Assembly (NCBI GenBank): GCA_021234155.1
Contig: JAJEKV010000004.1
Span: 310,001 to 374,000 of the forward strand
From: Isoetes taiwanensis
Lineage: Eukaryota; Streptophyta; Lycopodiopsida; Isoetales; Isoetaceae
Length of the DNA: 64,000 nucleotides
Direction of reading: 5' to 3'
The translations under genes were made by a program, and so were the position numbers. The notes under the pieces were generated by a model. It searched no databases. It had not been told where the DNA came from and worked only from the letters and a program-made list of their open reading frames with translations. Of this stretch, positions 9,063-62,825 are shown piece after piece; position 1 is the stretch's first letter, and each line of letters begins with the position of its first letter.

Positions 9063-9144
9063 CCAGACTGTTTACACTCTTGATGTGCAAGAGAATCAAG
9101 ATGGCAGAAGCAGGATGATAGTCATAATATTATCATTTGACAAC

Positions 9145-26128: not shown

Positions 26129-26140
26129 CTCCCCCCCACC
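26129..26140 (-). other. Polypurine tract
   Basis: The minus strand reads GGTGGGGGGGAG directly before the 3' LTR start TGTTAGTCC. It is the expected primer site for plus-strand DNA synthesis. Confidence 0.9.
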
Positions 26141-32932: not shown

Positions 32933-33153
32933 TATGAGCAGGAGGTTGAAGCATAACGGGATCGTGGCACTCTGCGTGGTGAAAAAGAGGTTCTTTGAGT
33001 GTCATCAAGCGGAGGTTGCTTCATAACGGCGTGTACATCTACGAGAGTGGCGGGGAGGTTCAGCATCTGAAAAGTGATCAACACGTTGGATTCGATTGCA
33101 AGGAGCCAGGTAAGGGTCAAGCAAAGCAGCCACAGCCTGGTCCTGATCAAGAG

Positions 33154-33900
33154 TCATTTCTCCCCAAGGATCAGCATATTCGGGGTAGGATGATGAGAGG
33201 CGCACTTCTTGGTGGAGCTGAACTTGATAGATATTACGGGCTTCCTCGGAATCGGTGTCGAGAGAGAGGGTTCAGCATTATCGACGGAAATGATTTTGCC
33301 TGTTTCCAAGTCCATGGTGGCATTGAGGTGACCATCGTGATGACTAAGCGATCCGTGGCCCGATAATGGATACTCTTGGCCCGGGCGGAGAAAAGGTCGG
33401 CCGACCAACATTTCATAATCACACGGATCTTCTCCAGCCTTCCAAACACCAAATTCCAAGGGGAATCCGAGATCACCAATGTTGATGTGAAGAAGAGGCG
33501 TGGCCTTGAGGTCTCGTGATATGGCCATTGGCCAATTTGATGTCATATGGGGCCGCGATAGAGTTGTTTGATGCCCATTTGTTTGGCGGAGTTTATCCGT
33601 GATGAGATTGACCGCGCTACCTCCGTCAATTTGAACATGATTGACTTGTTGATTGCCCAGTGGCATGTACCGTGGGAGTAGAGGTAGCAACAGCCCCAAC
33701 CAAAGCGGTCGGGAGTGGTGGCGGTCCTTGAGAGCAGGACAGAGTTTCAAAATTGTGGCCAAACTTAAAGGAATTTTAATTTTGGCTAGCTCCTCTTGGA
33801 GTTCCAAAGGCACATGAGAAAAAGGATCTGCTGGATCCACGGGTCTTTGGAGTGCGTGGTAATGAAGCAAAGCAACTTCTTTGAGTAGGTCAACCTCGGC
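33154..33900 (-). pseudogene. Gypsy aspartic protease (retropepsin)
   Basis: QIDGGSAVNLITDKL carries the catalytic Asp as DGGS, a variant known in plant Gypsy elements in place of DTGS/DSGS. YEMLVGRPFL matches the ILGR flap-side motif. A preceding stretch (LHYHALQRPVDPADPFSHV) links to gag. Confidence 0.8.
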
Positions 33901-33969
33901 GGCTATATTTGGATAGGTGCGAGGCGTGGAGGTTGAGGCGTGGAAGGTGCTTCTTGTCTTTGTTGAGCT

Positions 33970-35945: not shown

Positions 35946-35970
35946 TGCGACAGAAGAAAGGAAAATCGAA

Positions 35971-35991
35971 TCAGACCCGGCAGCGGCGACA
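35971..35991 (-). other. Primer binding site, tRNA-Asp-like
   Basis: One base after the 5' LTR the minus strand reads TGTCGCCGCTGCCGGGTCTG. This is close to the complement of a plant tRNA-Asp 3' end (TGGCGCCGTTGCCGGGGATC), with mismatches at positions 3 and 9. It is the likely primer site, but the tRNA assignment is not certain. Confidence 0.55.
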
Positions 35992-35992
35992 G

Positions 35993-36583
35993 TGTTTGGG
36001 GTCTGGGTTCGGGAACGCCTGCAAGACAGCCCTCTGTGAGGACCCTTGGATCTAACAGGAGAATCCGGGGGACTATGTCACGCGGGATTTGCAAGAAAAG
36101 AACAAGAAGAAGAAAACAGAACAAAAGAGAACAATGAGAGGAAAATGATAAGCTTCCTTGATATCAATGATGAACATACATGAGCTCTCGCAATCGAGAG
36201 AAGACTGAAGAGAGACAAGACTCAAAACTCATCTAAAAATCATGTGCTAGCTCTACTCATATATATAGTACAATGGCCTTTGGCCCAATATAGACACTCG
36301 GACTGATCTCGGTGCCGACTCCTGGAAGGAGGCCTGATTTGCAGGAATGCTGGCGGTGCCTCTTGAAGTGCCTAGAATCACGCTGGCGCTGACGCGGGCG
36401 GTGACGGGTCATCACTTGTCGCGGCGCCTCTTGGTAGCAGACCCAGGCTTTGACTGCGTGGTCTGCTGCTTGGTCTTCTGCTGGGCCTTGGACGACTGAC
36501 CCGTGCCTGTCTGTGGATCCTTGAGCTTGACCTGGTCCGTCGTATGCATGAATAGTCCTGTACCAGGAGGCACAGGACTAACA
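35993..36583 (-). repeat. 5' LTR (591 bp)
   Basis: Same ends and TATA-like TATATATAT (about 36,259-36,268) as the left LTR. It is flanked at 36,584 by AACAT, matching 25,536-25,540. Compared with the left copy, the first 320 bases look identical and the remainder differ mostly at CAG/CTG. Confidence 0.95.
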
Positions 36584-43815: not shown

Positions 43816-44077
43816 AAGAGTCAGTGCAAGCCATGTAATAGCTAGTGGGACATGGAATAACCATCATTCAATTAAATTGGGATTATGTCTTGATTTTGGG
43901 ACAAATTTCATATTGCAAGTTTTTTAGTAACTTGATAAAAGTCACAATATGTTAACATAGAAATCACACACCTTAATATAAATTTACACCTTAACTTCAA
44001 ATTACAAAATCATATATCATGAAACTCAAATAGTACACAACTTTTATTAAATGTGATTGATACATAGTAACTATTTT

Positions 44078-47030
44078 TCATTTTTCCACCAGCATCCCCA
44101 AGGATATGAGAACCTTATTCCTTACATCCTGAGGTATTGTAACTCTCGCTGTTTTACTAGGAATAGTTTTTGGAGTCCACGAGTACAATACGGTTTCAAT
44201 GTCTAGCCAAAGATCAGGATCACTAGGATTTCTCCTCCACCTCTTTGTCCAACAATCTGAATATCTTTCTTTATCGGTGACATTACTCAACTGATGTACT
44301 GGACACCACCATTCCACGCGCACCTACCTTCTTCTTTGCAAATATCCGAGATAGTGTATCCCAACCACATTGGATAGGTCTCTAGATCTGCTGGTTTTAC
44401 TACTACAAATTGGTGGCACTCCACGTCAGTAGAAGGTTCATAACAATCCATGCCTAGATATTTTGGCCTATCCTTCTTAGGACCAACATAGTGTTTATCA
44501 GATTGAGGATGAGCATATGCCTTCACAATGCTACTAATAGTACCATCATCTTCGTTAGCACCAGCTAATGTTTTCCACTTACTTTTAGGGAACCACCCTT
44601 CTTTCAGCTCTTCTGAGGATGTGTCTACCTCATCCAACAAGTTGATCACCTTCTTCCAATAATCTATCAATGCACGATTAGTCTCATCTGAATTAGTTTG
44701 CCAATGCTTGATGTAGTCATTGATGCCATCCTTAGTCAATCCCAATTGCTTGACTTCTTGGTTGGTTTTAGAGCTTTTGGTTGACGGGGAGGTATCATAG
44801 GCTTGCCATTTGCATCCCTGTGCCAAATTTCTGCCCCACCTCTCCACTTCTCCTCTGAAGGTCTCATTTTCCATTGCATGATTGGAATCCCTTCTCTCAC
44901 CCAAAAAGTGAATTGAAGAGGTCTAGAATGACCTTCCATGTCGAGAGCATACCCATCCACAAAACTCTTTCAATCAGGCACTTCTTCTATGATAGATCCT
45001 ATAGGAGATGGATTTGTACATCCATGAAATATTTCCAATAGCCTGGGAAAGTTGGTAACTGTCTGCTGTCTCAATACATGACTATATGTTCCAAACAATG
45101 CATCCACATCATGTCCGGACATTAGGAACCTCAAATTGACTCTTTCAAAAATACCCACAGCTGTTAAGTAGGATAGGAAAGAAAACATCCACCTGTTCTT
45201 ATTTTGACCAGCACAATTATCTAGTTGCAAGAGGAGCTTTCTGGGCAAATCTTGAGGTTTAGCACGAGATATTGAAGCTCCAACATGTTCATTAGGTCCA
45301 TTCCTCCTAAACCTTGCCTTGCTAAACTTTTCAATACTATTAGGGGTTCCATCCAACAATGCACTATGTAGTGCCTGGCTAGCTGTAGGATCCTGTAGGT
45401 GACCATTGTAACCCTTCTCATAGTTTCTTAAACACCTCATGATACTCCCAATGTGAAAATCTGGACCATCACTCCACAACTCTAAACTGAAATGGCCATA
45501 ATAGGTCTGAGACTGCCCATGCAATATTACCCTTTGTCATTGAAAATGCAAAGGGTATGATCTTCCACATGACTTAGGAATGTACTTGAATTGTGGAAGA
45601 CAAGTCTTACATTGGTCCATTTTATCATGTATAATACATAGATAGTTATTAGGTTCCATTGCGTGAGATAAGGTCCTCCACATCCAATAAGTTGATCTAC
45701 ATGATAGTTGATCCATCATATGGTCCTTCATATGTTCCCTTATCTTTGCCCTTAGACTTGGTTGCACAGTCTTATCTAGTGTCTCCTTGACTTAGCACAT
45801 AAATTGCACTTGGCAAAGTTGTTTGAAGTTGCTATGGTCACATGCTTGAAATGCTTATTCCATAGCCTACTAAAACTGGTTTGGGATATAGAGGCCACTC
45901 CAAGTTCCCGAAGTAATGCATTTATTTCCTCTAATATGCTCTTCTGGGTACAATGGGATGGCAATCTCTTTTCAACAATAACTCTACCCTGTTCATCCTT
46001 CTTACTCTTATGTGGCATGTTTTCTGCATTGAAATCCACATATCTTTCAAATATTTCCTTTGTAGCTATAGTTCTTGAGGTAGGCCTTACCAAGGCCGGT
46101 GTTCCCGTGCAATGCAATTTTACTATCATTTTCATGTCTCTTTTGCCAGTTGTGCCAAGAAGAGGTTGGAATTCCATGTATAGCCATCCATGCTTTTGAA
46201 CATATCCACTTTCCATTCAATGGGAATCTTTTCTTCTTTGATCTTTCATCCTGAATTGCATAGCCAAATATGGTGTACATGAAATTCCTCCTGCTATCAC
46301 ACTTATGTTCCTGATATGTAGCTCTTGCTACCACCATCTCCTCTATTGTGAACATTCTGTCTGAGGAGGCCCAACAACATTCACTTCCTCTAACCTTCAT
46401 CGGGGCTTGGGGAGAACAATCATAATCTGACTTGCATCTTTTGGTGGGATAATGCTTGAAAGTTGGAAGTGGCCTCTTGCTACACTGTGTGAACATTATT
46501 GACAATGGTTCTACATCTATAGGAAACATGTAGTTCCCCTCCAGTTTAATACTGTCCCTAGGCCATGCAACAATAGTTGGAACCTCTAGTTGCTTCACAC
46601 AAGCAAGGCATTCTTGTTTGCCTGAACCCTTTTCCTTCCAATTATCATATAATTTTGAGATTGCCACGCCTAACCTGTCCTCCCCTAATCTTTCATCATT
46701 CACTGCATTGATAGGATCTGCTAGAACAATAATCCCTTCTCCTACTGCCTCTCTGTTGCATGCATGCAGGATCTTGACCTTTTCGTTTTTCCAATCGACC
46801 CGAGTATAAAATACAATTTCCTTTCCTTTGGCATCATCCTTTTCATTTGAGGTCTTTTCCTTTCCTTTGCCATCATCAACATCATTTGGAGTCTTTTCCT
46901 TTCCTTTGCCATCATCAACATCATTTGAGATATTTTCCTTTCCTTGGCCATCATGTTCATTAGTTGGGGATTTTTCCTTGCCTTGATCAGCATCATTGGA
47001 GGCTTTTTTTTTTAGCATTTTGCATGCCAT
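44078..47030 (-). pseudogene. DUF7869-type transposase-like gene, disrupted
   Basis: The first frame has a Lys/Asp-rich N-terminus with several NDVDDGKGKEK repeats. It then has a conserved part (SDYDCSPQAPMKVRGSECCW, KWICSKAWMAIHGIPTSSWH, ALHGNTGLGKAYLKN). After a frame change come ISQTSFSRLWNKHFKHVTIA and KCNLCAKSR, then LQLDNCAGQNKNRWMFSFLS and FLMSGHDVDALFG. This order matches plant and oomycete DUF7869 proteins, whose LDNxxxxNKN and FLxxGHTxxDxD motifs look like part of a DDE/RNase H-like core. About 980 residues in all, with at least three frame changes. Function as transposase is inference. Terminal repeats were not found. Confidence 0.65.
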
Positions 47031-47045
47031 TGACCTAGAATGCAT

Positions 47046-48850
47046 AAAAACATATAGTAAGTTAGCATATCCAAATAACTTCTCACTAACATGTTCATAA
47101 ATGAAAGCCTCATATGTCTTATTCTATTTGATCATTCTATTTATATAATGGGATTCCCCAAGTTATTTTCCTCAACATTATATATAAATAAAACCCTCTA
47201 CTTATAACCTTCTAACTTGTATCCTATAATAACCTTAGAAACAACTTTTAAGGTTATTATAGGTTAGCAGTTTTAAGGTTAAGAAGTTTATTGTTTCTCG
47301 AAATTTTAAGGTTGGAAAGTTATTGTAGGTTAAAAGTTTTAAGGTTAGAAGTTCTAATTCATGAACTTTTAAACTTATAATTTAACTATTAACTTAAAAC
47401 TAGCATATAAACTTATAACTCATAACTTTTAAATTTAATAACCCCTAAAACAATTAACCCTTAAAACAATTGTCCTTAAAACAATTAACCCTTGTAATAA
47501 ATTTTCGCGGAAGTTATAATGGTGCGGTACGAAATTTTAAAAGCAGTTATTATTTCAAGTTAGCATTCCTTTTCAAACTTTTCTCTCACACTTTCGAACT
47601 TTTCTAATTCCAGGCGCTTCTGCTTCCAATTCCAGGCATTCCAGGCGCTTATGCTTCCAATTTCGACTTCCAATTTTGGCTTCCAATTTCTCGGCTTTCG
47701 GCTTTCTCGGCTTCTATCTGCTTCTCGGCTTCAATCTATCTTTCTCGGCATCTATCTTTCTCTCTTCAATCTATCTGCTGCATGACCTAAGGAGGAGATA
47801 ATATTATCTTATCTTCTATCTTTCTCGGCTTCAATCTGCTTCTCGGCTTCTATCTGCTTCAATCTGCTTCAATCTATTTTTATCTGCGCTTTCGAGCTTT
47901 TCGAGCTTTCTGCTTTTGGGTTTTCGGCTCAAAGGCTTTTCTGCTCGAAGGTTTCTACAAAGCATTCGGCTAAAGGTTTTGGCTCTCTACAATCTCTCTG
48001 GTTTTTTGGCTTCGGCTTGGAATAGCAAAGTTTTCTGGTTTTTTGGTTTTGTGTTAAAGGTTCTCGGCTTCTCGGTTTCCAAATTATCTGCTATTGCTTC
48101 TTCTCGGCTTCTTAAGGCTCAAATCATCTGCTATTGGCTTCTTGTCGGCTTCTTAAGGCTCAAATCATCTGCTATTGGCTTCTTCTCGGCTCAAATCAAC
48201 TAGGTTAGTATTTCACATTTCTTTACTTAAAGTCATTTATCTTATTCTTGTTTTTATTCTAGTATTTGAATGTTACGTTTCTCTGCTTTTATCTGTTCTT
48301 TATCTATTATATGAGCTTGAGGGCTTAATGAAGGGAGTGCTTATTGGCTTAGACTTTTAGATGCATCACCCCTAACGCCCTAGCACCTTCATATATAGAT
48401 CTATTGCTAATAAACATGTTCTATTGCTTATATGATCTTGCTCTCTGCTCTTGCTCTATGATCTTGCCTATATGATCTTGCTCTATGATCTATCTGCTCT
48501 ATGCTCTATGATCTATGATCTATCTGCTCTATGATCTTGCCTATATGATCTTGCTCTATGATCTATCTGCTCTACGATCTTGCTTATATGATTTTGATGT
48601 ATCTGCTCTTATTCTATTTCACTAGCTCTTCTTCTATCTGCTCTAAATAATGAACTAAATAAGGAGTTCTAAACACTGAACTAAATAATGAACTAAACAA
48701 GGAGTTCTAAACAATGAACTAAAACAATGAAGTAAATAATGAACTAAATAATGAACCAAACTAAATAACGCTCTATGAGTTCTTATTCTGCTCTATTTGC
48801 TCTTAGATTTGCTCTATCTATTCCCATGGCTCTATAGAATGATATGTTAG
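47046..48850. other. Low-complexity region, no gene supported
   Basis: It holds TTTTAAGGTTA-type repeats (47,220-47,350), TCTCGGCTTC/TATCTGCTTC repeats (47,680-48,190), CTCTATGATCTTGCCTATAT repeats (48,420-48,600) and AATAATGAACTAAA repeats (48,640-48,760). A 95-codon frame at 47,916-48,203 is built from these repeats and is unlikely to be real. Confidence 0.7.
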
Positions 48851-48858
48851 AATTGGCG

Positions 48859-48966
48859 AAATCGCGCTTGGCGCATTTCTAGTCCGGCTTTATATAAATC
48901 GCGCCCAGCGTGTGCGGTGCGATGTAAAAAAAAAAAACACTATAGTAAACGCGCCTGGCACGTTTT
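48859..48966. repeat. Three copies of the CGCG palindrome family (left edge)
   Basis: Diverged copies of the 21-nt palindrome (half-site AAATCGCGCC) lie at about 48,859-48,879, 48,896-48,924 and 48,947-48,966. These are the first occurrences going rightward, and none was noticed further left. Confidence 0.7.
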
Positions 48967-49051
48967 GAATTTTGCATACGTAGAATCGCTTTCTGGGGAT
49001 AGGAATATCATTTGCTAATTAGTTAATTTCTCTCGTTCTAGTGCATTACAC

Positions 49052-49432
49052 ATGGCTGCTTCTAGTTCAAATATACTTCCTCACGGACTGGCCATCAACA
49101 TTTGGACCCTGTACAAGATACTACTTAATTGTCTTTGTTCAAAACATTCACGAGAGAGAGTTGGACAAGCCGGTTGGCCGATGCATGTATCGGGGCCATG
49201 GGAATGCTATCATCGCATCACTGGACATATTCGGCTCCTCATGCTCTTAGTAAGGCTCATGCCCACAAATAAATACCAGGATTTGATTAGGAGTATCAAG
49301 GATCGATACAACACTCTGATTTGGAGACTCGACATTCGCAGGGAAGAAGAGGATGCTGTCATATCACAGTGGTCCAGGTGGCACTTTACTCGGTATTGGG
49401 CCGATGAAGTGGGCCTTTGCGACATTTTGTAG
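49052..49432 (+). CDS. Small unassigned gene, 126 residues
   Basis: Starts ATG at 49,052 in ACACATGGCT context, 12 bases after an acceptor-like TCTAG. The protein (MAASSSNILPHGLAINIWTL ... HIRLLMLLVRLM ... SQWSRWHFTRYW ... EVGLCDIL) has no domain I recognise. It contains a Trp/Arg-rich C-terminal part and no signal peptide. Palindromes of the CGCG family sit on both sides (48,947-48,966 and 49,468-49,487) but not inside. An overlapping frame starting 11 bases upstream is judged a shadow. Confidence 0.4.
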   Translation: MAASSSNILPHGLAINIWTLYKILLNCLCSKHSRERVGQAGWPMHVSGPWECYHRITGHIRLLMLLVRLMPTNKYQDLIRSIKDRYNTLIWRLDIRREEEDAVISQWSRWHFTRYWADEVGLCDIL

Positions 49433-49467
49433 AGATATGTAGAGCAAGCTATGTTAGTTCAAAAAGA

Positions 49468-49546
49468 ACTCGCGCCTGGCGCATTTTCACAATGTACATA
49501 TATATCTTTTGAATATAAATACAATCTCGCGCCTGGCGCAATTTTG
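49468..49546. repeat. Two CGCG palindromes
   Basis: CTCGCGCCTGGCGCATTTT at about 49,468-49,487 and TCTCGCGCCTGGCGCAATTT at about 49,525-49,545, separated by about 38 bp. Both keep the CGCGCCTGGCGC core. Confidence 0.85.
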
Positions 49547-49610
49547 CAGCTTAAACTTTTATGTGACGCTTATTTTATTATGCTTTTTTATTATATGCAA
49601 TGTCGAAAAC

Positions 49611-49730
49611 ATTGAATCCTTTGATGCCCTCCAGCCAGTATGACCAACCCCAAGAAACTACACATTCTCATTAATGTGTAGTTTCATGGGGTTGATATGA
49701 CTGGCTAAAGAACATCAAAGAATTCAAAAT
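49611..49730. other. Imperfect ~118-nt hairpin, miRNA-precursor-like or small MITE
   Basis: The arms 49,611-49,666 and 49,673-49,728 are inverted copies with few mismatches, and the loop is 6 nt (CTCATT). The inner stem is exact for 9 bp (CTACACATT/AATGTGTAG) and continues as CCAACCCCAAGAAA against TTTCATGGGGTTGATA, then CAGCCAGTATGA against ATATGACTGGCTA and CTTTGATG against CATCAAAG. Length and scattered mismatches suit a plant miRNA precursor. The mature strand could be TGTGTAGTTTCATGGGGTTG. A decaying foldback transposon is equally possible. Confidence 0.55.
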
Positions 49731-49802
49731 TCACAACATCACGCAGATGTTATGATATATATTTTTTTTTTTTTGAATATCCAAATAAACATACCTTTTA
49801 GG

Positions 49803-50259
49803 ACGTTCTTTTGGCCATGCTACAAAATGTGCCCACGCCACCAACCAACCTGTATCGCCACGGGGTGTCTTCGTGGAAGAGCCTCATCTTCATAATTGCA
49901 GTTTATAATGGAAATCTTACAGAAACTGTTTCCAAGAGGAACACCATGACACATAGAACTTGGATTCAGATCTTCGATTTTACATAAGCCTACTCGGCGC
50001 TTCAAGTTTCTTTGTTAAAAGATAGCATTCTTCTCCCATTAATCGATAAAGAAACAGAATGCATTGGGAAAAATAGAGGACGAAAAATAGAGAACAATAA
50101 TGCATTGGGAAACATAGAGAATGCATTCGGAATGGAATCACACTCACCATAGTTCAGCAGACATCGATTGATCTTGGGATTGAAGGCGGCTCGATCGATC
50201 CTAAGCGATCTTGGGCGCTCTGATAGTAGGTGGCCGATTAGGTGGTAGTAGATTGCCAC
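49803..50259 (-). pseudogene. Leftward small gene, unit 1 copy
   Basis: First exon at 50,259-50,150 (MAIYYHLIGHLLSERPRSLR ... NRCLLNYG) ends in a good donor GTGAGTGTG. A second exon covers about 50,015-49,817 (RVGLCKIEDLNPSSMCHGVP, EDEALPRRHPVAIQVGWW). The acceptor region is altered relative to unit 2 (TTATCGA for TTATCAG). No domain recognised. It shares its upstream region with the large rightward gene. Confidence 0.4.
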
Positions 50260-50944
50260 ATATGCGTTTCTTGAAAATAATAATTAATTGTTATCTTGAA
50301 ATTGCACTAAAAAGAAAAACACAATTTAAATTTGCAAATGAGCCGAGACGGACGGTTAATTAAGGCGGTATAAATTGAAAAGGACGTGAATTTGAATTTA
50401 CGGTTGTAAATCTGACGGCCTAGATTATGAACGCATACATATAAGTTTAAACCAAAACCACAGTCTCATATTATCCACACTTGCAGTTCTATGGCGTCTA
50501 GAGGATCTGGCAGCCGCGGCCGAGGCGCAGGTAGAGGTGGGCGACATGCCAAAGCACAAATCCAAAGCCTGGAGTTTGCTGAACAAGCGAAAAGCACAAA
50601 TCCAACAAGCGCCTCAGGTATGAATCAGTGTTTTTGTTCTGTAATTGATTTCTGTGTCCCTCTTTTTGTTAGGTTTTTAGGATTTTTTCTGTAATAATAG
50701 AGTTATTATCCGATAAGAAGCATATGTCCTCTAATATTTGAGTTCATATGTCCTAAAAATGTCTTAATGTGTGCATGTTGTTTTTTCTTTTAATGATGTA
50801 TGTGCTGTTTCAATCTTGTATACTTAGCTGAACGGTATTCAGTAGCTAGTTGTGTTTTTTATAGTTAGTTGTGTCCTCTGATGAAGATTCGACTCTTTAA
50901 GTTGTATTTTTATAGTTAGTTGTGTCCGAGCATTTTGATTAGGA

Positions 50945-51137
50945 CAAAACGCCCTAAGCCGGGCGCATTTAATTAGTCATTACATTAGTTTCTTTATCTT
51001 TGAGGTCACTTCTAAAGCGCGCCAAGCGCGTATTTGTTGCATTTTGACTGGGACAAAACGCGCCTGGCGCCTGGCCCCAATAAACTAAATGAACTTGCTG
51101 TGTATTCGTTTTCAAATCGCGCCAAGCGCGTTTTTGT
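50945..51137. repeat. Four CGCG palindromes in intron 1 of the unit 1 gene
   Basis: Copies at about 50,947-50,970, 51,016-51,036, 51,056-51,076 and 51,116-51,137, in the same places as in unit 2. The first reads GCCCTAAGCCGGGCGC where unit 2 has GCCCCTGGCGC, again a change at CTGG. Confidence 0.8.
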
Positions 51138-52334
51138 TGCATATGTTTCGACAAAGATATATTTTAGCATTAAAAGATTAACCCATGTGCTTTGTAATTT
51201 CGGGATCACAAAAGACAAGCAAAAAGAGGGAGGACCAAGCAAGGCGAGACCTCCTGATCGAAAAAAAAGCAAAGGACGAGATGAAGATGTTCTTGTATGC
51301 ACCCGCAACATGTATTGACGTTAGAAGATACATCCGGAATAATAAAGGCTCGTAGAACCTCCATGTCCGTAAGAAGATCTTATAGAGGGGAGAATGGTAT
51401 GTGGAGATATTCAAAACTGGTGGGAAGCGAGACCTCATATTCATGTCAAGGGTAAGAGAGACCGGTCAAATAAAGCGGGGGAATTCTTATTACATGCTAA
51501 GTGCGTGATCGATTCTTTCGCTCGTGCTAGTTGAAGTGGGCCAAAAACATAAGAAGAGCCTAAAGAAGATCAATCGATGCAGTGCTAGCTCTTTTAAAGA
51601 GACTGCATTAAGATCAGACGACATGGCCGATAACCTCTTCAAATTTGGCTTGACAGTTGGCGAGCCATTGACTCCTAAAAGAATATGCGAGGGGCTTACA
51701 GCTGTTCGACGAGCCATTAGCACGAGGCCCTCAGGTAGTGTCTACTTACAGGCAGTGAAGGATAAGGAAGAAGAAAGCTCTAAAGGCAGGGAAACCACAG
51801 AAGCGACAGCAGGCCTTACAAGTGACGATGACAAGGCCAGGCAGTTAGAGGCGATGAGCAAGCTCAAAAAATATGCTGACAAGTATCCACTGGGCCTGAA
51901 CTTCACCCATCCAGTCCATGTGGATAGGCTTTTCAGGTCCACTAAAGCCATTTATATCGGCAGAAGGTATGACAAGCAGCACTCCTTGGAGATAGTGAAC
52001 AACATGATCGAAAATCCAGGGCAAGTGCCAATGCCTGCAGATGTAGTGTCGTACGATACCAGAATGAGGAAGGTAATCATGTGGAGTGTTGGAGGACTTC
52101 ATCGAGAATCGACATACATTTTATGATAATAGATGGCCAAGATTCAATAGAGGCCCGAAGGTTACGATCAAGAAGGCACAAAGATCTTGGGCATCGGTTG
52201 TTCTATAAGTCGTGATTCGTCGAAACTACGGTTCCGAGCGGCTCAACAACACCTGCCGAGCTAGCCGAAATAAGCGCACTCCTGAATGACATGGGAAAAA
52301 CATTCTTATACAAAAGGTAATTCTCTTCCCTTAG

Positions 52335-52722
52335 GTTTCGCCAGATCTGCGCAAAGCGCCAGCGATTTCATATTAAAGCAAATCAGCGCCAGCGCGATTT
52401 TGCCTACTCTAAAGAACAAAGGCTTTCGGAATGGTAGTCGTTTCTCCTCAAACAAGCAAATCGCGCCCGCCGAAGATTTTCATATTAGAATGTTAACGCC
52501 CATCGCGGGATTTGCCTACCCTCGGGAGAAAAGGCTATCCGCCTAATAGCCAAGTCTCATCGCTAGGCAATTCTCGACGCCGATTTGCATTCTAATATGA
52601 AATCGCCAGCGCCGATTTATTTGTTTGATGAGGAACGACTACCAATCGAGGAAGCGCTTTAGAGTAGGCAAATCGCTACCGATGATTTGCTTTAATATGA
52701 AATCGCCAGCGCCGATTTTTAA
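52335..52722. repeat. Intronic foldback, unit 1 copy (corrupted)
   Basis: Corresponds to the 391-bp foldback of unit 2. The palindromic cores are shortened or altered (for example GCGCCAGCGCG or CGCCAGCGCCG in place of CGCGCCAGGCGCG), while the spacers (CATATTA, CCTACTCTAAAGAACAAAGG, CTAATATGAAATCG) are kept. Confidence 0.8.
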
Positions 52723-55700
52723 ACTAGAAGGATTTATTTCATTCACGATTATGAAGCTAAGAATGTTACTCCTTGCAGTCCCTATATAGAGCAACTTCGG
52801 CATGCTCGGAACCTGTGGATTCAATATGGGAAGCCAATGCCAACCAGACAGGACCAGTCCAAAAGAGCTGAATTCAAGTTGCTGGAGAGGACACTTAGTC
52901 GACGATAATACAGACAAAACCAAGAGCACCGGATCAAAGAAAAAAAGGAGATGAAAAGGGTGATGCTTCCAGGAACCAACTGCGCCCAAGGATGCCTGCA
53001 AGATAGTATTTGCTTCAGATCCATTATGGGAGAAATGGAATGAATTCTGGGATGCCTACGTTGAGAAGAAGTTGCCAGATTCACAAGGAAGATTTCCTCC
53101 TGTTGACACATCAATTTTTGATATACATATACTTGAGAGATGAGGAAGGCTCATGGATTGGGACGCATCAAGATCTGATCTCGATTCCGGACAGGTTAAT
53201 TAGAAAGGAAATTCTTTACAAGAAAACCCCGGCAACAAAGGCTATGGAATCATTTGAAGATGCACGCCGACGAGCTGAAAAATATTAGAGTGCTCAAGGA
53301 GGCAGGTTGGTGAGGAATTACAAAGGCTTTACGGAGAGTGGTGGTTTGTCGGAGTTAGGACTCATGCAAAAGTATAACGTCTCCAACGACGACCTAAAGA
53401 AGTATGTATTTTGGTCCAAGGACTTTGTCAAGCAGCCAGGTTGAAGAACGTTGCAAAGATCGATTGGGCTTCACACTAAAGTTACGTCCGACTTGAAACG
53501 AAAAGTCGCGATGGTGAAGCAGACTCCGAGACGGAATCCACTTTTTTTTATCAAGTGTCCACTGGTTTCAAGTGTGCCTTGCCAGAAGTGGGTGCAGGTC
53601 CCCATCATATCACACTCTTTGTCCTTGATAGCCGAGGCACCGGATGGTCGCTTTGATGACTATAATACGTTCTTCAACATACGCAATGGTTTCACCATGG
53701 AGATGAACTACACAATTGTCACTATATGTCCCTCCGACATAATGCATATGCTTTAAGTGCTGCAAATGACCTTGAATGCGTGAAAGTCATCCGACAGGCG
53801 ATCCTCATAGATGAAAACAGGGACAGTGACTTCAGCACAGAAGTAAAATTTCTCATGTGCTTATAATTATGATAGCCATGATGGATGGTAAGGAATATGA
53901 AAGGCTCAAGGGAAAACCAGATGGAGACAAGCTAGCATGGCGTGTTATCCGGTTAGATGAACGATATCTGCGTAAACGTCTTCTATCCGGAGCAAGAAGA
54001 CAAGGGAAGGGTGTCAAGGTCGTGGAAGAGTTAGAGGAAGAAGAGGAAGAAGAGGATGAAACGAGGATTCACCCAATTCTTGTGGGCCACATTAAGTATG
54101 AGCTCCTAACTTCACATAAGGGTAAGCTAAACAAGAACGGGTTCTCTATGGACCTTCCCAAGATCTCATTGAAGCATTTTATCCATTGGGAACAACTTTG
54201 GGAACTTCACGTTGGAGGTTACATCGATAGAGAAGCTTTGAAGTCGCAAGGAAATGTCGGGAGCGCCCTCCGATGATCTCGCCAAAAATTTCTTGGACCT
54301 CTTCTTTGAGAAAGTACTAGAGGAAGCACCTAGGGGACCAATCGGCAAAGGTAAAAACAAAGCTTCTAGCTCTAAGGTCGAAATACCCGCAGATTTTCTT
54401 AAGGAACGGAGAATATGAGAAAGCTATTCGTTGGCCACAACATCATGGATGAAACCAAGAGCAGCCCGGATCACCAAGTACCTATCAACATCCCCGCGGA
54501 ACATCCTTGGCCCCAAAAAATATAAAACAGGATGAAGATAACAAGGATGATGATAATAACAATAATGATGATGAAGAAGACTCCAAATCAAAAACACTAG
54601 CCAAGTTAGCGTAAAGAGTAATGAACTATCAAGCATAGTTCACACCGCATGCATCTCAATCGATGTGGTTGGTGCTTCTATCGTAATAGGAGACAACTCG
54701 AATAAGGATGCAACGGAAGAAGACACCACGGGGAATGAAGAAGAAAGGTATCGTAACAATGTTCTTTTTTGATATCCATGCATTTTACAAACTACAAGCA
54801 TATAGAAATCATACCGGTGCGATTTAGAGTTTCCTAGAGATCATATTTTTAAATTATATTGACATGCATCATTCATGAAATCTACCGACGCTAGCGTTGC
54901 TTTTCCATTTCTTTATCTCATACGTTATTGTTCTCCTTACGTAAATGATTTGGCTTCCCCAAAAGTACCGGTCTTTGATTTGAATGGTGTGCTATGTAGA
55001 ACGTTACCTAAAGCAACGCTTTGAAAAGTCATGGTATGCGCAACAACCATTTGAGACACATTACCAAATATGTTTACCCGCCCTTTATCCGGAAGGAGAT
55101 GTTGGACCAGGCCTTCACCGCTTTTGTTATTTTAATTTGGTCATCTATGGAGCATAGAAATATCTGAGGATGTTTAAAAAGTAGTGTCCGAAGCTAAATA
55201 GAGATTACGCCCATCTGGGATCAAAGCAAATGTGCTTCATTCACAAACCCTAAAGAACCGACAGTAAAAAGATATTTGTGAAAATGCTTCATGCTAACAT
55301 GATGGATGCCCTAGGTGTTGAGGATAAGGAAGGCATGATCATGGTGGATGATGACACTCTAAAGTGTTGCTTCAATCAGTCCACGTCATTGAATCCGCCA
55401 TCCTATTATCCCAAGATTTTGACAAAGATGACTTCTGCTTCGCTTTGTTAGTATCTTGCACCTAAATAGCTTAGGAAAAACGGTTGAAGAGATACAAACA
55501 CTATACCAAGATCTTGATTGGACGGGGGAAATTGACAGGACCTTGAGAAAATCGTTCTAGAAAGGGAACTTTTTGATATATATGTATACAGAAATACACT
55601 TTCCAAAAAGTTTTGAATATGAAATATACTTCAACCTCATTGATTATATATTGTGTGTTCTTATATTAGCATTATTGGTTACGTATACGTATTGTTTTTT

Positions 55701-56149
55701 TTTTTTTATATTGTAATGTGTATAGTTTGCTATACTTGCAATAATTTGTATGTATATCTGAAGTCAATAATTTAGGTGTGTATAAATAGGTATGCATAAA
55801 TTGGCAAACCATAAACCCGGGTCATATACACTTATTATTATGGCACATTCTATTACGCAAGGTGAACCATACGGACCTCTGCGAGTCTTGAGCTAGAAAA
55901 GCAGAACTTGAGTGGCAGTGTCGTTGCTATGAATCCGTCGCTTATCCTGATAGTCCCTTTGATGTTGTAATCCATCTTATGGAGATCCGGAGCATGGTTT
56001 TGTTCATGATCGGCCGGGATCTCGAGAGGGCCGCTGCGGCGCTGTCGACAGAAATGAATGGATTAGTTTTAAGTTTATGTTCTATAGCAATACGTAACAT
56101 AAACATACCTTTTTCGGGACGTTCTTTTGGCCATGCTACAAATGTGCCC

Positions 56150-56566
56150 TTTCCACCAATTCAGATCGCCACCGGGTGTCTTCGTGGAAGAGCCTCATCT
56201 TCATAATTGCGTTTATAATGGAAATCTTACGTAAAACGTTTCCAAGAGGAACACCATGACACATAGAACTTGGATTCAGATCTTCGATTTTACATAAGCC
56301 TACTCGGCGCTTCAAGTTTGCTGTTAAAAGATAGCATTCTTCTCCGACACTGATAAAGAAACAGAATGCATTGGGAAAAATAGAGGACGAAAAATAGAGA
56401 ACAATAATGCATTGGGAAACATAGAGAATGCATTCGGAATGGAATCACACTCACCATAGTTCAGCAGACATCGATTGATCTTGGGATTGAAGGCGGCTCG
56501 ATCGATCCTAAGCGATCTTGGGCGCTCTGATAGTAGGTGGCCGATTAGGTGGTAGTAGATTGCCAC
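56150..56566 (-). CDS. Leftward small gene, unit 2 copy
   Basis: Exon 1 is 56,566 to about 56,457 (MAIYYHLIGHLLSERPRSLR, DRAAFNPKINRCLLNYG) and ends in donor GTGAGTGTG. After an intron with acceptor TTTCTTTATCAG at about 56,350, exon 2 carries CKIEDLNPSSMCHGVPLG and related sequence. The last part near 56,150-56,230 is altered relative to unit 1. About 110-120 residues, no domain recognised. It is divergent from the large gene, with about 230 bp between start codons. Confidence 0.4.
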
Positions 56567-56675
56567 ATATGCGTTTCTTGAAAATAATAATTAATTGTTA
56601 TCTTGAAATTGCACTAAAAAGAAAAACACAATTTAAATTTGCAAATGAGCCGGGACGGACGGTTAATTAAGGCGG

Positions 56676-56683
56676 TATAAATT
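56676..56683 (+). promoter_or_regulatory. Candidate TATA box of the large rightward gene
   Basis: TATAAATT lies 114 bases before the ATG at 56,797 and is conserved in unit 1. A leader of about 85 nt would follow. Confidence 0.45.
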
Positions 56684-56796
56684 GAAAAGGACGTGAATTT
56701 GAATTCTGATTTGTAAACTCGGCGGCCTAGATTATGAACGATACATATAAGTTTAAACCAAAACCACGATCTCATATTATCCGCACTTGCAGTTCT

Positions 56797-59700
56797 ATGG
56801 CGTCTAGAGGATCTGGCAGCCGCGGCCGAGGCGCAGGTAGAGGTGGGCGACAGGCCAAAGCACAAATCCAAAGCCTGGAGTTTGCTGAACAAGCGGAAAG
56901 CACAAATCCAACAAGCGCCTCAGGTATGAATCAGTGTTTTTGTTCTGTAATTGATTTCTGTGTCCCTCTTTTTGTTAGGTTTTTAGGATTTTTTCTGTAA
57001 TAATAGAGTTATTATCCGATAAGAAGCATATGTCCTCTAATATTTGAGTTCATATGTCCTAAAAATGTCTTAATGTGTGCATGTTGTTTTTTCTTTTAAT
57101 GCTGTATGTGCTGTTTCAATCTTGTATACTTAGCTGAAAGGTATTCAGTAGCTAGTTGTGTTTTTTATAGTTAGTTGTGTCCTCTGATGAAGATTCGACT
57201 CTTTAAGTTGTATTTTTTATAGTTAGTTGTGTCCTGAGCATTTTGATTCGGACAAAACGCCCCTGGCGCAGTTTAATTAGTCATTACATTAGTTTCTTTA
57301 TCTTTGAGGTCACTTCTAAAGCGCGCCAAGCGCGTATTTGTTGCATTTTGACTGGGACAAAACGCGCCTGGCGCCTGGCCCCAATAAACTAAATGAACTT
57401 GCTGTGTATTCGTTTTCAAATCGCGCCAAGCGCGTTTTTGTTGCATATGTTTCGACAGCATATATTTTAGCATTAAAAGATTAACCCATGTGCTGTAATT
57501 TCACAGGATCACAAAAGACAAGCAAAAGAGGGAGGACCAAGCAAGGCGAGACCTCTACAGTCCAGAAAAAGCAAAGGACAGATGAAGATGTTACTGTTAC
57601 ATACCTGCAACATGTATTGACGTTAGAAGATACATCTGGAATAATAAAGGCTCAGGTAGAACCTCCATGTCCAGAAGAAGATCTTATAGAGGGGTCAGAA
57701 TGGTATGTGGAGATATTCAAAACTGGTGGGAAGCAGACCTCATATTCATGTCAAGGGTAAGAGAGACTGGTCAAATAAAGAAGCAGGGAATTCTTATTAC
57801 ATGCGAAGTACAGGACGATTCTTTCTGTTCTGTGCTAGTTGAAGTGGGCCAAAAACATAAGAAGAGCCTAAAGAAGATCAATCGATGCAGTGCTAGCTCT
57901 TTTAAAGAGACTGCATTAAGATCAGACGACATGGCCGATAACCTCTTCAAATTTGGCTTGACAGTTGGCGAGCCATTGACTCCTAAAAGAATATGCGAGG
58001 GGCTTACAGCTGTTCGACGAGCCATTAGCACGAGGCCCTCAGGTAGTGTCTACTTACAGGCAGTGAAGGATAAGGAAGAAGAAAGCTCTAAAGGCATGGA
58101 AACCACAGAAGCGACAGTAGGCCTTACAAGTGACGATGACAAGGCCAGGCAGTTAGAGGCGACGAGCAAGCTCAAAAAATATGCTGACAAGTATCCACTG
58201 GGCCTGAACTTCACCCATCCAGTCCATGTGGATAGGCTTTTCAAGTCCACTAAAGCCATTTATATCGGCAGAAGGTATGACAAGCAGCACTCCTTGGAGA
58301 TAGTGAACAACATGATCGAAAATCCAGGGCAAGTGCCAATGCCTGCAGATGTAGTGTCGTACGATACCAGAACGAGGAAGGTAATCATGTGGAGCAAGCT
58401 GGAGGACTTCATCGAGAATCCTGACATACATTTTATGATAATAGATGGCCAGCATTCAATAGAGGCCCAGAAGGTTCTGATCAAGAAGGCACAGCATACT
58501 GGGCATCAGTTGTTCTATAAGCTGTATTCTGTCAGAAACTGCCGGTTCCTGAGCGGCTCAACAACACCTGCCGAGCTAGCCGAAATAAGCGCACTCCTGA
58601 ATGACATGGGAAAAACATTCTTATACAAAAGGTAATTCTCTTCCCTTAGGTTTCGTTTTCGTATTTGCAAATCGCGCCAGGCGCGATTTCATATTAGAAA
58701 GCAAATCGCGCCAGGCGCGATTTGCCTACTCTAAAGAACAAAGGCTTCCTGGAATGGTAGCCGTTTCTCCTCAAACAAGCAAATCGCGCCTCGCAAGATT
58801 TCATATTAGAATGCTAAACGCCCCACGCGGGATTTGCCTACCCTCAGGAGAAAAGGCTATCCGTCTAATAGCCAAGTCTCATCAGGCTAGGCAATTCTCG
58901 CGTGACGCGATTTGCATTCTAATATGAAATCGCGCCAGGCGCGATTTACTTGTTTGATGAGGAACGGCTACCAATCGAGGAAGCGTTTTCTCTTTAGAGT
59001 AGGCAAATCGCGCCTGGCACGATTTGCTTTCTAATATGAAATCGCGCCAGGCGCGATTTTAAACTAGAAGGATTTATTTCATTCACGATTATGAAGCTAA
59101 GAATGTTACTCCTTGCAGTCCCTATATAGAGCAACTTCGGCATGCTCGGAACCTGTGGATTCAATATGGGAAGCCAATGCCAACCAGACAGGACCAGTCC
59201 AAAAGCGTTGAATTCAAGTTGCTGGAGAGGACACTTAGTCAGACGATAATACAGGACAAAACCAAGAGCACCAGATCAAAGAAAAAAAAAGGAGATGAAA
59301 AGGGTGATGCTTCCGAGGAACCAACTGTGCCCAAGGATGCCTGCAAGATAGTATTTGCTTCAGATCCATTATGGGAGAAATGGAATGAATTCTGGGATGC
59401 CTACGTTGAGAAGAAGTTGCCAGATTCACAAGGAAGATTTCCTCCTGTTGACACATCAATTTTTGATATACATATAACAGAGATGAGGAAGGCTCATGGA
59501 TTGGACGATCAAGATCTGATCTCAGTTCTGGACAGGTTAATTAGAAAGGAAATTCTTTACAAGAAAACCTCGGCAACAAAGGCTATGGAATCATTTGAAG
59601 ATGTACGCGACGAGCTGAAAAATATTAGAGTGCTCAAGGAGGCAGTTGGTGAGGAATTACAAAGGCTTACAGGAGAGTGGTCGTTGTCGGAGTTAGGACT

Positions 59701-61923
59701 CATGCAAAAGTATAACGTCTCCAACGACGACCTAAAGAAGTATGTATTTTGGTCCAAGGACTTTGTCAAGCAGCAGAAGTTGAAGAACGTTGCAAAGATC
59801 AGTGGGCTTCACACTAAAGTTACGTCCGACTTGAAACGAAAAGTCGCGATGGTGAAGCAGACTCCGAGACGGAATCCACTTTTTTTTATCAAGTGTCCAC
59901 TGGTTTCAAGTGTGCCTTGCCAGAAGTGGGTGCAGGTCCCCATCATATCACACTCTTTGTCCTTGATAGCCGAGGCACCAGATGGTCGCTTGATGACTAT
60001 AATACGTTCTTCAACATACGCAATGGTTTCACCATGGAGATGAACTACACAATTGTCACTATATGTCCCTCCGACATAATGCATATGCTTTAAGTGCTGC
60101 AAATGACCTTGAATGCGTGAAAGTCATCCGACAGGCGATCCTCATAGATGAAAACAGGGACAGTGACTTCAGCACAGCAAGTAAAATTTCTCATGTGCTT
60201 ATAATTATGATAGCCATGATGGATGGTAAGGAATATGAAAGGCTCAAGGGAAAACCAGATGGAGACAAGCTAGCATGGCAGTGCTATCAGTTAGATGAAC
60301 GCATAATGCGAAACGTCTTCTATCTGGAGCAAGAAGACAAGGGGAAGGGTGTCAAGGTCGTGGAAGAGTTAGAGGAAGAAGAGGAAGAAGAGGATGAAAA
60401 CGAGGACGACCCAATTCTTGTGGGCCACATTAAGTATGAGCTCCTAACTTCACATAAGGGTAAGCTAAACAAGAACGGGTTCTCTATGGACCTTTCCCAG
60501 TATCTCATTGAAGCATTTTATCCATTGGGAACAACTTGCTGGGAACTTCATGTTGGAGGTTACATCGATAGAGAAGCTTTGAAGTCAGCAAGGAAATGTC
60601 AGAGCGTCGTCTCCGATGATCTCGCCAAAAATTTCTTGGACCTCTTCTTTGAGAAAGTACTAGAGGAAGCACCTAGGGGACCAATCGGCAGTGCAAAAAA
60701 CAAAGCTTCTAGCTCTAAGGCCGAAATACCTGCAGATTTTCTTAAGGAACGGGAGAATATGAGAAAGCTATTCGTTGGCCACAACATCATGGATGAAACC
60801 GAAGAGCAGCCAGATCACCAAGTACCTATCAACATCCCTGTGAACATCCTTGGCCCTGAAAATATAAAACAGGATGAAGATAACAAGGATGATGATAATA
60901 ACAATAATGATGATGAAGAAGACTCCAAATCTGAAAACACTAGCCAAGTTAGCGTAAAGAGTAATGAACTATCAAGCATAGTTCACACTGTACAGATCTC
61001 AACTGATGTGGTTGGTGCTTCTATCAGACCGGAGACAACTCAGAATAAGGATGCAACGGAAGAAGACACCACGGGGAATGAAGAAGAAAGGTATCGTAAC
61101 AATGTTCCTTTTTTTGATATCCATGCATTTTACAAACTACAAGCATATAGAAATCGCGCCTGGTGCGATTTAGAGTTTCCTAGAGATCATATTTTTAAAT
61201 TATATTGACATGCATCATTCATGAAATCGCGCCTGACGCGTTTTCGTTTTCCATTTCTTTTATCTCATACGTTATTGTTCTCCTTACAGAAATGATTTGG
61301 CTTCCCCAAAAGTACTGGTCTTTGATTTGAATGGTGTGCTATGTAGAACGTTACCTAAAGCAACGTTTGAAAAGTCATGGTATGCGCAACAACCATTTGA
61401 GACACGTACCAAATATGTTTACCCGCGCCCTTATCTGAAGGAGATGTTGGACCAGGCCTTCAGTCTGTTTCGTTGTGCAATTTGGTCATCTATGGAGCAT
61501 AGAAATATACAGGATGTTTAAAAAGTAGTGTCTGAGCTAAATAGAGATTGGGCGTCCATCTGGGATCAAAGCAAATGTGCTTCATTCACAAACCCTAAAG
61601 AACCGACAGGTAAAAAGATATTTGTGAAATGCTTGCGCAACATGATGGATGCCCTAGGTGTTGAGGATAAGGAAGGCATGATCATGGTGGATGATGACGC
61701 TCTAAAGTGTTGCTTCAATCAGTCACAGTCATTGAATCCGCCATCCTATTATCCTGAAGATTTTGACAAAGATGACTTCCTGCTTCGCTTTGTTAGTATC
61801 TTGCACGAAATAGCTTCAGGAAAAACGGTTGAAGAGATACAAACACTATACCCGCATCTTGATCGGACAGGGGAAATTGACAGGGACCTTGAGAAAATCG
61901 TTCTAGAAAGGGAACTTTTTTGA
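56797..61923 (+). CDS. Large gene: RG-rich start, DGQHS motif, acidic region, FCP1/HAD domain (reading frame interrupted)
   Basis: Exons join in phase: 56,797-56,923; 57,507-58,631; 59,119-61,090; 61,290-61,923. Order: RG-rich tail (MASRGSGSRGRGAGRGG), a globular part with FTHPVHVDRLFKSTKAIYIG and FMIIDGQHSIEAQKVLI, a lysine-rich and helical part, AGPHHITLFVLDSRGTRWSL, an Asp/Glu/Asn-rich stretch, and a C-terminal HAD domain (VLVFDLNGVLCR, YVYPRPYLKEML, RCAIWSSMEHRNI, MIMVDDDALKCCF). DGQHS resembles the DGQHR motif of ParB/DGQHR-like proteins. The HAD part resembles FCP1/NIF phosphatases, but the second Asp of DxDx(T/V) is Asn. Interruptions: extra G at 57,755-57,758, T8 run at 59,880-59,887, a shift near 60,070, and TAA at 61,519; all are also in unit 1. 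About 1,300 residues. Function unknown. Confidence 0.6.
57253..57441. repeat. Four CGCG palindromes in intron 1
   Basis: Copies at about 57,255-57,275, 57,319-57,339, 57,359-57,379 and 57,419-57,440, all with a core like CGCGCC(A/T)(G/A)GCGCG. The intron spans 56,924-57,506 (GTATGAATC ... TTTCACAG). Confidence 0.85.
58669..59059. repeat. 391-bp foldback made of eight 21-nt palindromes
   Basis: Inside intron 58,632-59,118. Palindromes at 58,669-58,689, 58,703-58,723, 58,781-58,801 and 58,816-58,835 are mirrored by 58,893-58,913, 58,927-58,947, 59,005-59,025 and 59,039-59,059. The spacers are also inverted copies (CATATTAGAAAGC, GCCTACTCTAAAG, GAATGGTAGCCGTT, GGCTAT/ATAGCC). The loop is 7 nt at 58,861-58,867 and the symmetry centre is 58,864. 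It would fold as one long hairpin in the pre-mRNA. Confidence 0.95.
61153..61246. repeat. Two CGCG palindromes in the last intron
   Basis: AAATCGCGCCTGGTGCGATTT at about 61,153-61,173 (one change from perfect) and AAATCGCGCCTGACGCGTTTT at about 61,225-61,245. The intron is 61,091-61,289 (GTATCGTAAC ... CTCCTTACAG). Confidence 0.85.
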
Positions 61924-62459
61924 TATATATGTATACAGGAAATACACTTTCCAAAAAGTTTTGAATATGAAATATACTTTACACCAACCTCATTCGAATT
62001 ATATATTGTGTTCTTATATTAGCATTATTGGTTCTGTGTACGTATTGTTTTTTTATATTATATGTATGGTTTGCTATACTTGCAATAATTTGTATGTATA
62101 TACCGTCAATAATTTAGGTGTGTATAAATAGGTATGCATGAAATTGGCAAACCATCGGCCGGTCTCATATACGCTTGTTATTATGGCACATTCTATTACC
62201 CGCAAGATGAACCATGCGGACCTCTGCGCAGTGCCGCATGAAGCTAGAAACAGAACTTCGGGGATCGGCTTGATGTCGCTATGAATCCCGTCCGCTTCTA
62301 TCCTGATCCCTTTGATGTTGTAATCCATCTTATATGGAATCCAGAGCATGGTTTGTTCATGATCGACAGGATCTCAGGACCGCCTGCAGCGCCTGTCGAC
62401 AATGAATCGGATTAGTTTTTTAAGTTTATGTTCTATTATCATGCGTTATTTATGCCAAG

Positions 62460-62482
62460 AAAATCGCGCCACACGCGATTTG
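62460..62482. repeat. CGCG palindrome beyond unit 2 (right edge)
   Basis: AAATCGCGCCACACGCGATTT at about 62,460-62,480, with two central changes. It is the last copy seen going right. Confidence 0.8.
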
Positions 62483-62825
62483 AACCACGAAAATCTCTGT
62501 TTTGTAGCAACTTGCTTGCTGTTATTTATTCGTAAAGCACTACAGTTTCAATGTTTAGATTTCGTTGACGTCCGTGATGGTACGAATTAATAAGCAATTT
62601 CCTACTTTTTATATTGCCAACATTCTGTCATAATATGGGTCATTTGCATCGAATATTTGAATGCCTTTGCATTTCAACATAAAATGCATCTTCCTAGCCC
62701 GAAAATGAACTCAGTGCAAAAGTGTGGTTAATTCAATATAATGGTCAATAAAAGGCTTATACGGCACGATTTTGGAATAGACATAATCCCAATTTAATTG
62801 AATGATGGTTGAATGTTCTGAGGCC
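62483..62825. other. No gene seen
   Basis: AT-rich, with short frames only. Confidence 0.55.

Follow-up and report, generated by a model that had tools for sequence, protein, structure and literature searches.

The 64,000-nucleotide (nt) stretch of the Isoetes taiwanensis genome analysed here (assembly GCA_021234155.1, contig JAJEKV010000004.1, positions 310,001 to 374,000 of the forward strand; hereafter the window) contains a DNA transposon that has terminal inverted repeats (TIRs) and a target-site duplication (TSD) and that carries a large foldback of short palindromes in intron 1 of an accessory gene. What moves is the entire TIR element, and the gene with the foldback is its second gene. 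The accessory protein has a DGQHS motif, with a phosphatase of the NIF/FCP1-type HAD class joined to it as its C-terminal part, on the plus strand. On the other side of the element, a Pfam scan of three transposase-side open reading frames (ORFs) returned DUF7869 and no Mutator-like element (MULE) domain; the DUF7869 ORF contains the string LDNCAGQNKN, and Pfam assigns the domain no function. The same TIR stands at the left end of three other copies (C1018, C1031 and C1065) and at the right end of C1018 (1 mismatch), C1031, C1063 and C1067; the fetched part of C1065 showed no TIR at the right. All three copies with both ends in hand have a target duplication: GAAT in the window, TCAA on both sides of C1018 and, imperfectly, AGGG with one extra base in C1031. 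Between their 32-bp TIRs, C1018 and C1031 measure 12,669 bp and 12,573 bp; the window element is as long as 18,952 bp because about 6.3 kb of it is tandemly duplicated (50695-56085 and 57001-62436, 92.8% identity). The literature searched held no published work on DUF7869 or on Isoetes DNA transposons with terminal inverted repeats.

Intron 1 is 487 nt long, and the foldback takes up 405 nt of it. The initial annotation had described it as a near-perfect foldback made of eight copies of one 21-nt palindrome, lying in an intron of the DGQHS gene and able to form a hairpin. Our analysis agrees on the inverted arms, the 7-nt loop, the centre at 58864 and the intron borders, with GT at 58632 and AG at 59118 and the reading frame joining as ...GKTFLYK/S/PYIEQLRH.... 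"Near-perfect" was generous, as the arms are 86% complementary in the window copy and the inverted matches in other full copies of the foldback run from 75% to 93%. The eight palindromes lie where they had been placed, but they are unequal: four are exact (58669, 58703, 58927 and 59039), the one at 59005 has 1 mismatch (centre ignored), and those at 58781, 58815 and 58893 are degenerate, with 3, 5 and 4 mismatches. The hairpin-forming potential is borne out by the RNA fold of the intron, at -304.5 kcal/mol against -133.6 +/- 6.8 in 100 shuffles (z = -25). The palindrome pattern, at up to 3 mismatches and with palindromic sites counted on both strands, matches the window 23 times, whereas 100 dinucleotide shuffles averaged 0.00 matches. 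Chance can be excluded on both counts.

The arms themselves are repetitive. They have a direct periodicity of 112 nt, in which four 80-nt copies are 100, 81, 60 and 61% alike, and the 57-nt segments that separate the palindrome pairs resemble one another, the first matching the central one at 0.65 in direct orientation (maximum of 500 shuffles 0.63) and the third at 0.86 in inverted orientation. The 112-nt repeat and the related segments point to a history in which module duplication was combined with inverted duplication; any order given to these duplications would be an inference.

A search of the genome itself found that intron 1 with both its ends recurs widely (40 of 356 candidates scored). 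Among 38 other foldback copies that were fetched, 37 were seen to adjoin exon 1; the remaining one, L047, has an interruption within the foldback. Exon 2 follows in 36 copies, while L030 and L049 end 9 nt into it. No free-standing copy was found among the 40 scored candidates. At the flanks of the foldback, the best candidate for a target duplication is 5 nt, a length that was also the most frequent maximum when 300 random places were examined, and none exceeds the random level. The earlier suggestion of a foldback transposon built by repeated insertions is therefore not supported, nor is an autonomous foldback element, for which we found neither a target duplication of its own nor, among the copies scored and fetched, any at unrelated sites. 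An inversion artefact of the assembly, raised as a possible source of the mirrored half, is rejected because the coding frame runs on both sides and the structure recurs both in the tandem-duplicate gene copy (copy A) and on other scaffolds. Nor did an empty site come to light: the sole long open frame read (C1007, L104) is, as judged by eye, an internal deletion that starts within exon 1, takes out the whole intron and extends through a large part of exon 2. As a separate observation, L017 (after position 7926) and L049 have the same junction at window position 59127, 9 nt inside exon 2; beyond it the two have a 270-nt match, 91% alike, which includes a short stretch before the junction, and they represent either a derived subfamily or a shared insertion.

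The palindrome is not confined to the foldback. Near-matches to this first palindrome at up to 5 mismatches (centre ignored) number 22 in the window, all 22 inside 43859-62810, and the remaining 45 kb has no site even at up to 6 mismatches. They occupy the region that separates the divergent genes, the 5' side of the DGQHS gene, introns 1 and 2 and the neighbourhood of the right end. None of the 22 overlaps coding sequence, which makes up 8,266 of the 18,952 nt as mapped, and slightly shifted coding borders led to the same outcome (overlap was computed for the window only). Other elements have similar sets: 15 sites in C1018, 18 in C1031 and 15 in C1065; for C1063, C1065 and C1067 one element boundary is known, and a position inside the element was tested on that one side only. 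In the 1.66-Gb genome, the exact first palindrome occurs 623 times and its reversed control never. We fetched the surroundings of 16 exact copies that came from the top of the match list and were no random sample; 15 of the 16 stretches belong to this transposon lineage: 11 match the element directly, and four more are 94-97% alike to L082, which is one of the 11 and begins in the terminal repeat. The one stretch without a placement in the lineage is L085. Viral contigs gave no match to the palindrome pattern. In a related family (L087, L074, L077 and L083), palindromes stand at a 42-bp spacing in the intron before the HAD exon, two or three units by copy, which suggests that sites are gained or lost in tandem. 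The palindrome region between the genes also holds another inverted repeat, at 49600-49739, with 67-nt arms that are 78% complementary and a 6-nt loop.

A more diverged family carries a different palindrome. We read the intron region in 17 copies, most of them selected because they were divergent. Intron 1 sits at an unchanged position in 16, and in L104 it is gone through the deletion described above. A self-inverted match of at least 60 nt is present in 15 of the 16 introns, one of them that of C939, and in none of 80 mononucleotide shuffles. At up to 4 mismatches, first-type palindromes are absent from L097, L102 and L103, three of the 16. L103 is the C939 copy, whose exon 1 protein is 52% identical to that of the window, and C939 has 14 sites of ACGCGCA-N-TGCGCGT at up to 2 mismatches and none of the first core. 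These sites form a cluster upstream and also lie 5' of the gene, in intron 1, in the gaps between later exons and beyond those exons, places that correspond to those in the window element, which at the same threshold has 12 first-core and no second-core sites. Elsewhere, a single second-core match turns up at 2 mismatches in L013 and another in L015, and neither copy has any at 1 mismatch. The second palindrome, CACGCGCANTGCGCGTG, has 33 exact copies in the genome against none of its reversed control, and four of five loci fetched around these sites are copies of the accessory gene (L123 is not); one of the loci, L122, is nearly C939 again, at 91-98% identity in exon 1. None of the five has a first-type site at up to 1 mismatch. 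C1066 shares 67% identity with C939 in exon 1, and its intron 1 forms a foldback with a total length of about 228 nt. The arms are 89% complementary, the second-type palindromes are arranged 2+2, and the intron folds at -221.8 kcal/mol (z about -24, 60 mononucleotide shuffles). It has no match of more than 13 nt in common with the window intron; the foldback design thus recurs with unrelated sequence. We regard this comparison of families as our strongest result: intron 1 keeps its position and its habit of holding palindromes, the two half-sites are both different, and clusters kilobases apart share that difference.

In the accessory gene of the window, PF03031 matches the two halves of the HAD exon (E 1.1e-7 and 2.5e-5), and this phosphatase may have a link to the CTD of the polymerase. 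Against three copies 77-80% alike, the ratio of nonsynonymous to synonymous substitution (dN/dS, NG86) is 0.063-0.095, with dS at 1.3-1.7 and so near saturation; two other pairs gave 0.17 and 0.21, and three pairs gave no dS. These ratios indicate that the accessory protein is under purifying selection. A genome search with the exon 1 protein, in which 150 of 4,983 candidates were scored, found identities from 100% down to 53%. The DGQHS motif resembles DGQHR; the consulted part of a published account assigns DGQHR to the DndB superfamily, compares it with a ParB/sulfiredoxin-like domain and gives the related GmrS domain a ParB/Srx fold (PMC4619093); the Isoetes protein could possibly have a ParB fold as well.

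The foldback arms have also changed orientation. We scored 20 asymmetric arm pairs, mismatched in the main subfamily, as forward, reversed or paired in 39 copies, with the majority of 21 of the 39 as reference, pairs at palindrome centres dropped before counting, and copy A excluded here as well as from the arm-change and all-copy CpG totals. Eight of the 39 copies are reversed at 4-10 of the 20 pairs, in runs toward the centre; the other 31 are reversed at 1 at most. In L030 and L049, the loop and inner arms are the reverse complement of the main form, and their consensus matches the main one at 94% when inverted and 89% when direct. The other six flipped copies have a different loop, and the corresponding values, 93% and 91%, are less clear. 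On an exon tree, which includes copy A and has only half the columns for L030 and L049, the reversed state appears in more than one place, with 4 changes, at least 2 of them forced by well-supported branches. From this we infer that the arms recombine within the element, or that flipped forms spread between copies. Arm changes in the 39 copies comprise 163 two-sided and 877 one-sided cells, and 68 of the two-sided cells are Watson-Crick pairs. Compensatory evolution of the stem was looked for and no convincing case emerged; many two-sided changes are inversions of the inner segment, and we therefore make no claim of selection on pairing. In 20 of the 39 copies, hand-picked for few indels, CpG change is 0.051 in palindromes (64 sites), 0.132 in the rest of the intron (18) and 0.083 in exons (70), with one-sided permutation p values of 0.005 against other intronic CpGs and 0.027 against exons.

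We propose a mechanism by which such an arrangement could arise. Palindromes such as AAATCGCGCCNGGCGCGATTT would be bound by a dimeric protein that the element itself encodes, and the DGQHS/HAD accessory protein, whose gene carries the foldback, would be the first and natural candidate for the binder. In favour of such sites we count the confinement of the palindrome to non-coding DNA of the element, the core specific to each family, the recurrence of foldbacks with other sequence, the flipped arms, the purifying selection on the accessory protein and the lower CpG change in palindromes of the hand-picked copies. Binding would regulate or de-silence the genes of the element. Tandem duplication of a palindrome-containing module, together with inverted duplication, would have raised the density of sites, and the foldback would be a by-product of the inverted duplication, whose arms, once formed, could recombine with each other and flip the inner segment. 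The sites would change together with the element-encoded protein. That the foldback in intron 1 of the accessory gene holds putative binding sites of this kind is, in our judgement, a claim evenly balanced between right and wrong.

Several of our own results weigh against this proposal. The long foldback is dispensable, since the intron of L091 has two palindromes and a self-inverted match of just 23 nt. Divergence across copies is no lower in palindromes (0.081) than in foldback spacers (0.084) to any real extent, and the intron-2 palindromes (0.047 and 0.056, neighbours 0.035-0.044) show no better per-base conservation. Over all copies the CpG contrast shrinks to 0.088 in palindromes, 0.096 in exons and 0.130 in foldback spacers, and conversion between the arms could also cause it. 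Neither Pfam nor NCBIfam gave a usable match to the DGQHS protein, in which no DNA-binding domain was recognised, and the AlphaFold models of the accessory protein are poor (predicted local distance difference test scores of 39 and 43). Because just two palindrome cores were compared, the case for protein and motif changing together amounts to one contrast.

The unremarkable conservation of the palindromes is what would be expected if they were a neutral by-product, hairpin-prone sequences spread by replication slippage or template switching in unconstrained non-coding DNA and read by no protein. The repeated modules (the 112-nt period, and the 42-bp spacing in intron 2 of another family) and the concentration of inversion and small indels in the palindromes fit such an origin as well. 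It does not readily explain why clusters kilobases apart share one core and the diverged family another, with no cross-match at 1 mismatch and just the two single ones at 2 mismatches (L013 and L015), nor why 15 of the 16 sampled sites fall in this lineage or why, among the cleaner copies, CpGs within palindromes enjoy relative protection; we consider it rather unlikely. The hairpin itself might instead be what is selected, if the transcribed intron formed a double-stranded RNA of about 190 bp, the natural Dicer substrate suggested in the initial annotation, and yielded small interfering RNAs of 21-24 nt that silence or auto-regulate the element. The very stable folds in the window and C1066 would suit this, as would the recurrence of foldbacks in the same intron of diverged copies. 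An RNA hairpin does not, on the other hand, predict the same core outside the foldback (in the 5' cluster, in intron 2 and at the right end) or another core common to all clusters of a diverged family; the arms show no convincing compensatory change, and the 15 Rfam matches at E <= 1 are all under the gathering score, the best being MIR7486 at 36.1 bits against 67. Judged from sequence comparison, this explanation is unlikely.

Sites that the transposase would need for transposition, of the kind of subterminal repeats, could be seen in the one site about 325-350 bp from the right end and the half-site close to the right TIR in C1018, C1031, C1063 and C1067. Most sites are internal, however, and the left 4.9 kb or so of C1018, C1031 and C1065 has no near-match, which makes such a role very unlikely. 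A foldback that fills so much of its intron also resembles an introner, that is, a mobile intron that was itself the creator of the intron. The want of a target duplication of its own, the absence of free-standing copies among the candidates scored and the same intron place in copies 52-80% alike in protein, with different filling, leave this hardly credible.

Among known systems, the binding-site proposal finds its closest counterpart in the VANC/VANDAL elements of Arabidopsis. As the consulted parts of two reports describe them, the transposon encodes a protein that binds a motif present at high density in the non-coding parts of its own element; the motifs occur in VANC and VANB introns as well as upstream of VANA, evolve by repeat formation and differ between families (PMC5735166; PMC10398659). 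To the extent of those parts, the Isoetes element is alike in having an accessory gene beside a putative transposase gene, a dense element motif in non-coding DNA (both in accessory-gene introns and upstream of that putative transposase gene), arrays of the motif that grow and shrink through repeat formation, and related families with different motifs, two cores having been compared. It differs in that no Mutator-like or VANC domain was detected, that its motif is a 15-21-bp palindrome whereas the VANDAL motif is described there as 9 bases arrayed in one orientation, that its array is a foldback, and that its protein has DGQHS and NIF-phosphatase parts. MULEs have 9-bp target duplications, whereas those of the Isoetes element are 4 bp. 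It resembles VANC/VANDAL in anatomy without being a member. The initial annotation knew of no described plant element with this design; the exact layout is indeed without precedent in the literature searched, but co-evolving motif arrays are known from the VANDAL elements, as far as the consulted part of that report goes (PMC5735166).

Other comparisons are more partial. Sola2 has a 4-bp TSD according to the part of the source consulted (PMC3627910), and the Isoetes element is likewise a TIR element with a 4-bp target duplication, in which only DUF7869 was identified. The accessible descriptions of the Drosophila foldback Galileo show long inverted arms of shorter repeated units around a short centre, as here. 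Foldback-type elements with long, internally repetitive inverted repeats also include FB, FARE and SoFT. Unlike Galileo and these elements, the Isoetes foldback is an intron without termini or a target duplication of its own, and the surrounding TIR element is what moves. CACTA/Spm elements have subterminal TNPA sites; multiple copies of a short element-specific motif are common to both, reading by an accessory protein being putative in Isoetes, but the Isoetes sites are mostly internal, in introns and between genes, and absent from the left 4.9 kb or so of the three copies. Searches on anti-silencing with palindromic motifs returned nothing related among titles and the beginnings of abstracts.

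The quality of individual copies calls for some care. What sets copy A apart from copy B, the other copy of the tandem duplication, is clusters of small indels, of which many fall in palindromes and others in exons. In the part of its description consulted, the I. taiwanensis assembly is an Oxford Nanopore Technologies assembly with gap filling (PMC8566536), and we therefore treat much of copy A as unpolished long-read sequence; indel-rich copies elsewhere, possibly unpolished too, warrant the same caution. The coordinates of the features are collected in the table below. Beside the transposase-like ORFs, the ORF at 46047-47123 (minus strand) has acidic tandem repeats of about 13 amino acids, NDVDDGKGKEKT-like, with no Pfam match. 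Outside the element, we noticed by eye broken Ty3-like retrotransposon ORFs (25960-36163, minus strand) and a 478-amino-acid open frame (7635-9071, minus strand) that resembles a plant amino-acid/polyamine transporter, and there is a GC-rich inverted repeat at 11667-11756 with 40-nt arms, 88% complementary, and a 10-nt spacer.

Table. Features of the Isoetes taiwanensis transposon, in window coordinates
Feature	Position	Strand	Details
Whole transposon	43859..62810	.	18,952 bp; TSD GAAT both sides
Left terminal inverted repeat, 32 bp	43859..43890	+	
Transposase-like ORF, DUF7869 (PF25273)	44970..45536	-	E 2.1e-25
Palindrome cluster between divergent transposase-side and DGQHS genes	48859..49544	.	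48859, 48946, 49467, 49524
Intron 1 of tandem-duplicate gene copy (copy A)	52317..52778	+	same foldback, palindromes damaged by small indels
Palindrome cluster 5' of DGQHS gene	57254..57438	.	57254, 57318, 57418; duplicate copy 51014, 51114
Exon 1 of DGQHS gene	57931..58631	+	FMIIDGQHS motif; ORF, ATG position, dN/dS
Intron 1 of DGQHS gene	58632..59118	+	GT-AG, frame preserved; same intron in other copies
Foldback	58662..59066	+	199-nt arms 58662-58860 / 58868-59066, 7-nt loop 58861-58867, eight palindromic units
Palindrome unit 1	58669..58689	.	AAATCGCGCC-A-GGCGCGATTT
Palindrome units 2-8 of foldback	starts 58703, 58781, 58815, 58893, 58927, 59005, 59039		
Following exon(s)	59119..61090	+	frame change near 60003-60043 in window copy
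Intron 2	61091..61289	+	palindromes 61151-61171 and 61224-61244; borders and frame junction deduced
NIF/FCP1-like HAD phosphatase exon	61290..61923	+	in-frame stop 61519-61521 in window copy
Palindrome near right end of element	62461..62481	.	
Right terminal inverted repeat, 32 bp	62779..62810	-	identical to left, 32/32 bp

A bolder extension of the binding-site proposal is that plant transposons have a second, independently evolved system of sequence-specific anti-silencing, found here in a lycophyte TIR element with DUF7869. A fusion of a DGQHS part, possibly of ParB fold, with a NIF/FCP1-type phosphatase would read a family-specific palindrome whose sites were amplified as nested palindromes and foldbacks in its own introns, and binding would keep CpGs unmethylated or the polymerase active. 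We offer this tentatively and think it doubtful. If the palindromes are co-evolving sites, accessory proteins that read motif arrays of their own element would be recurrent and not a peculiarity of Arabidopsis Mutator elements, and the strategy would, if true, exist outside seed plants and in another type of transposon. Two families with different cores and diverged proteins provide a test case for a joint change of specificity in a protein and its dispersed sites, and the flipped foldbacks preserve, as a record left by nature, how the arms of a long palindrome recombine.

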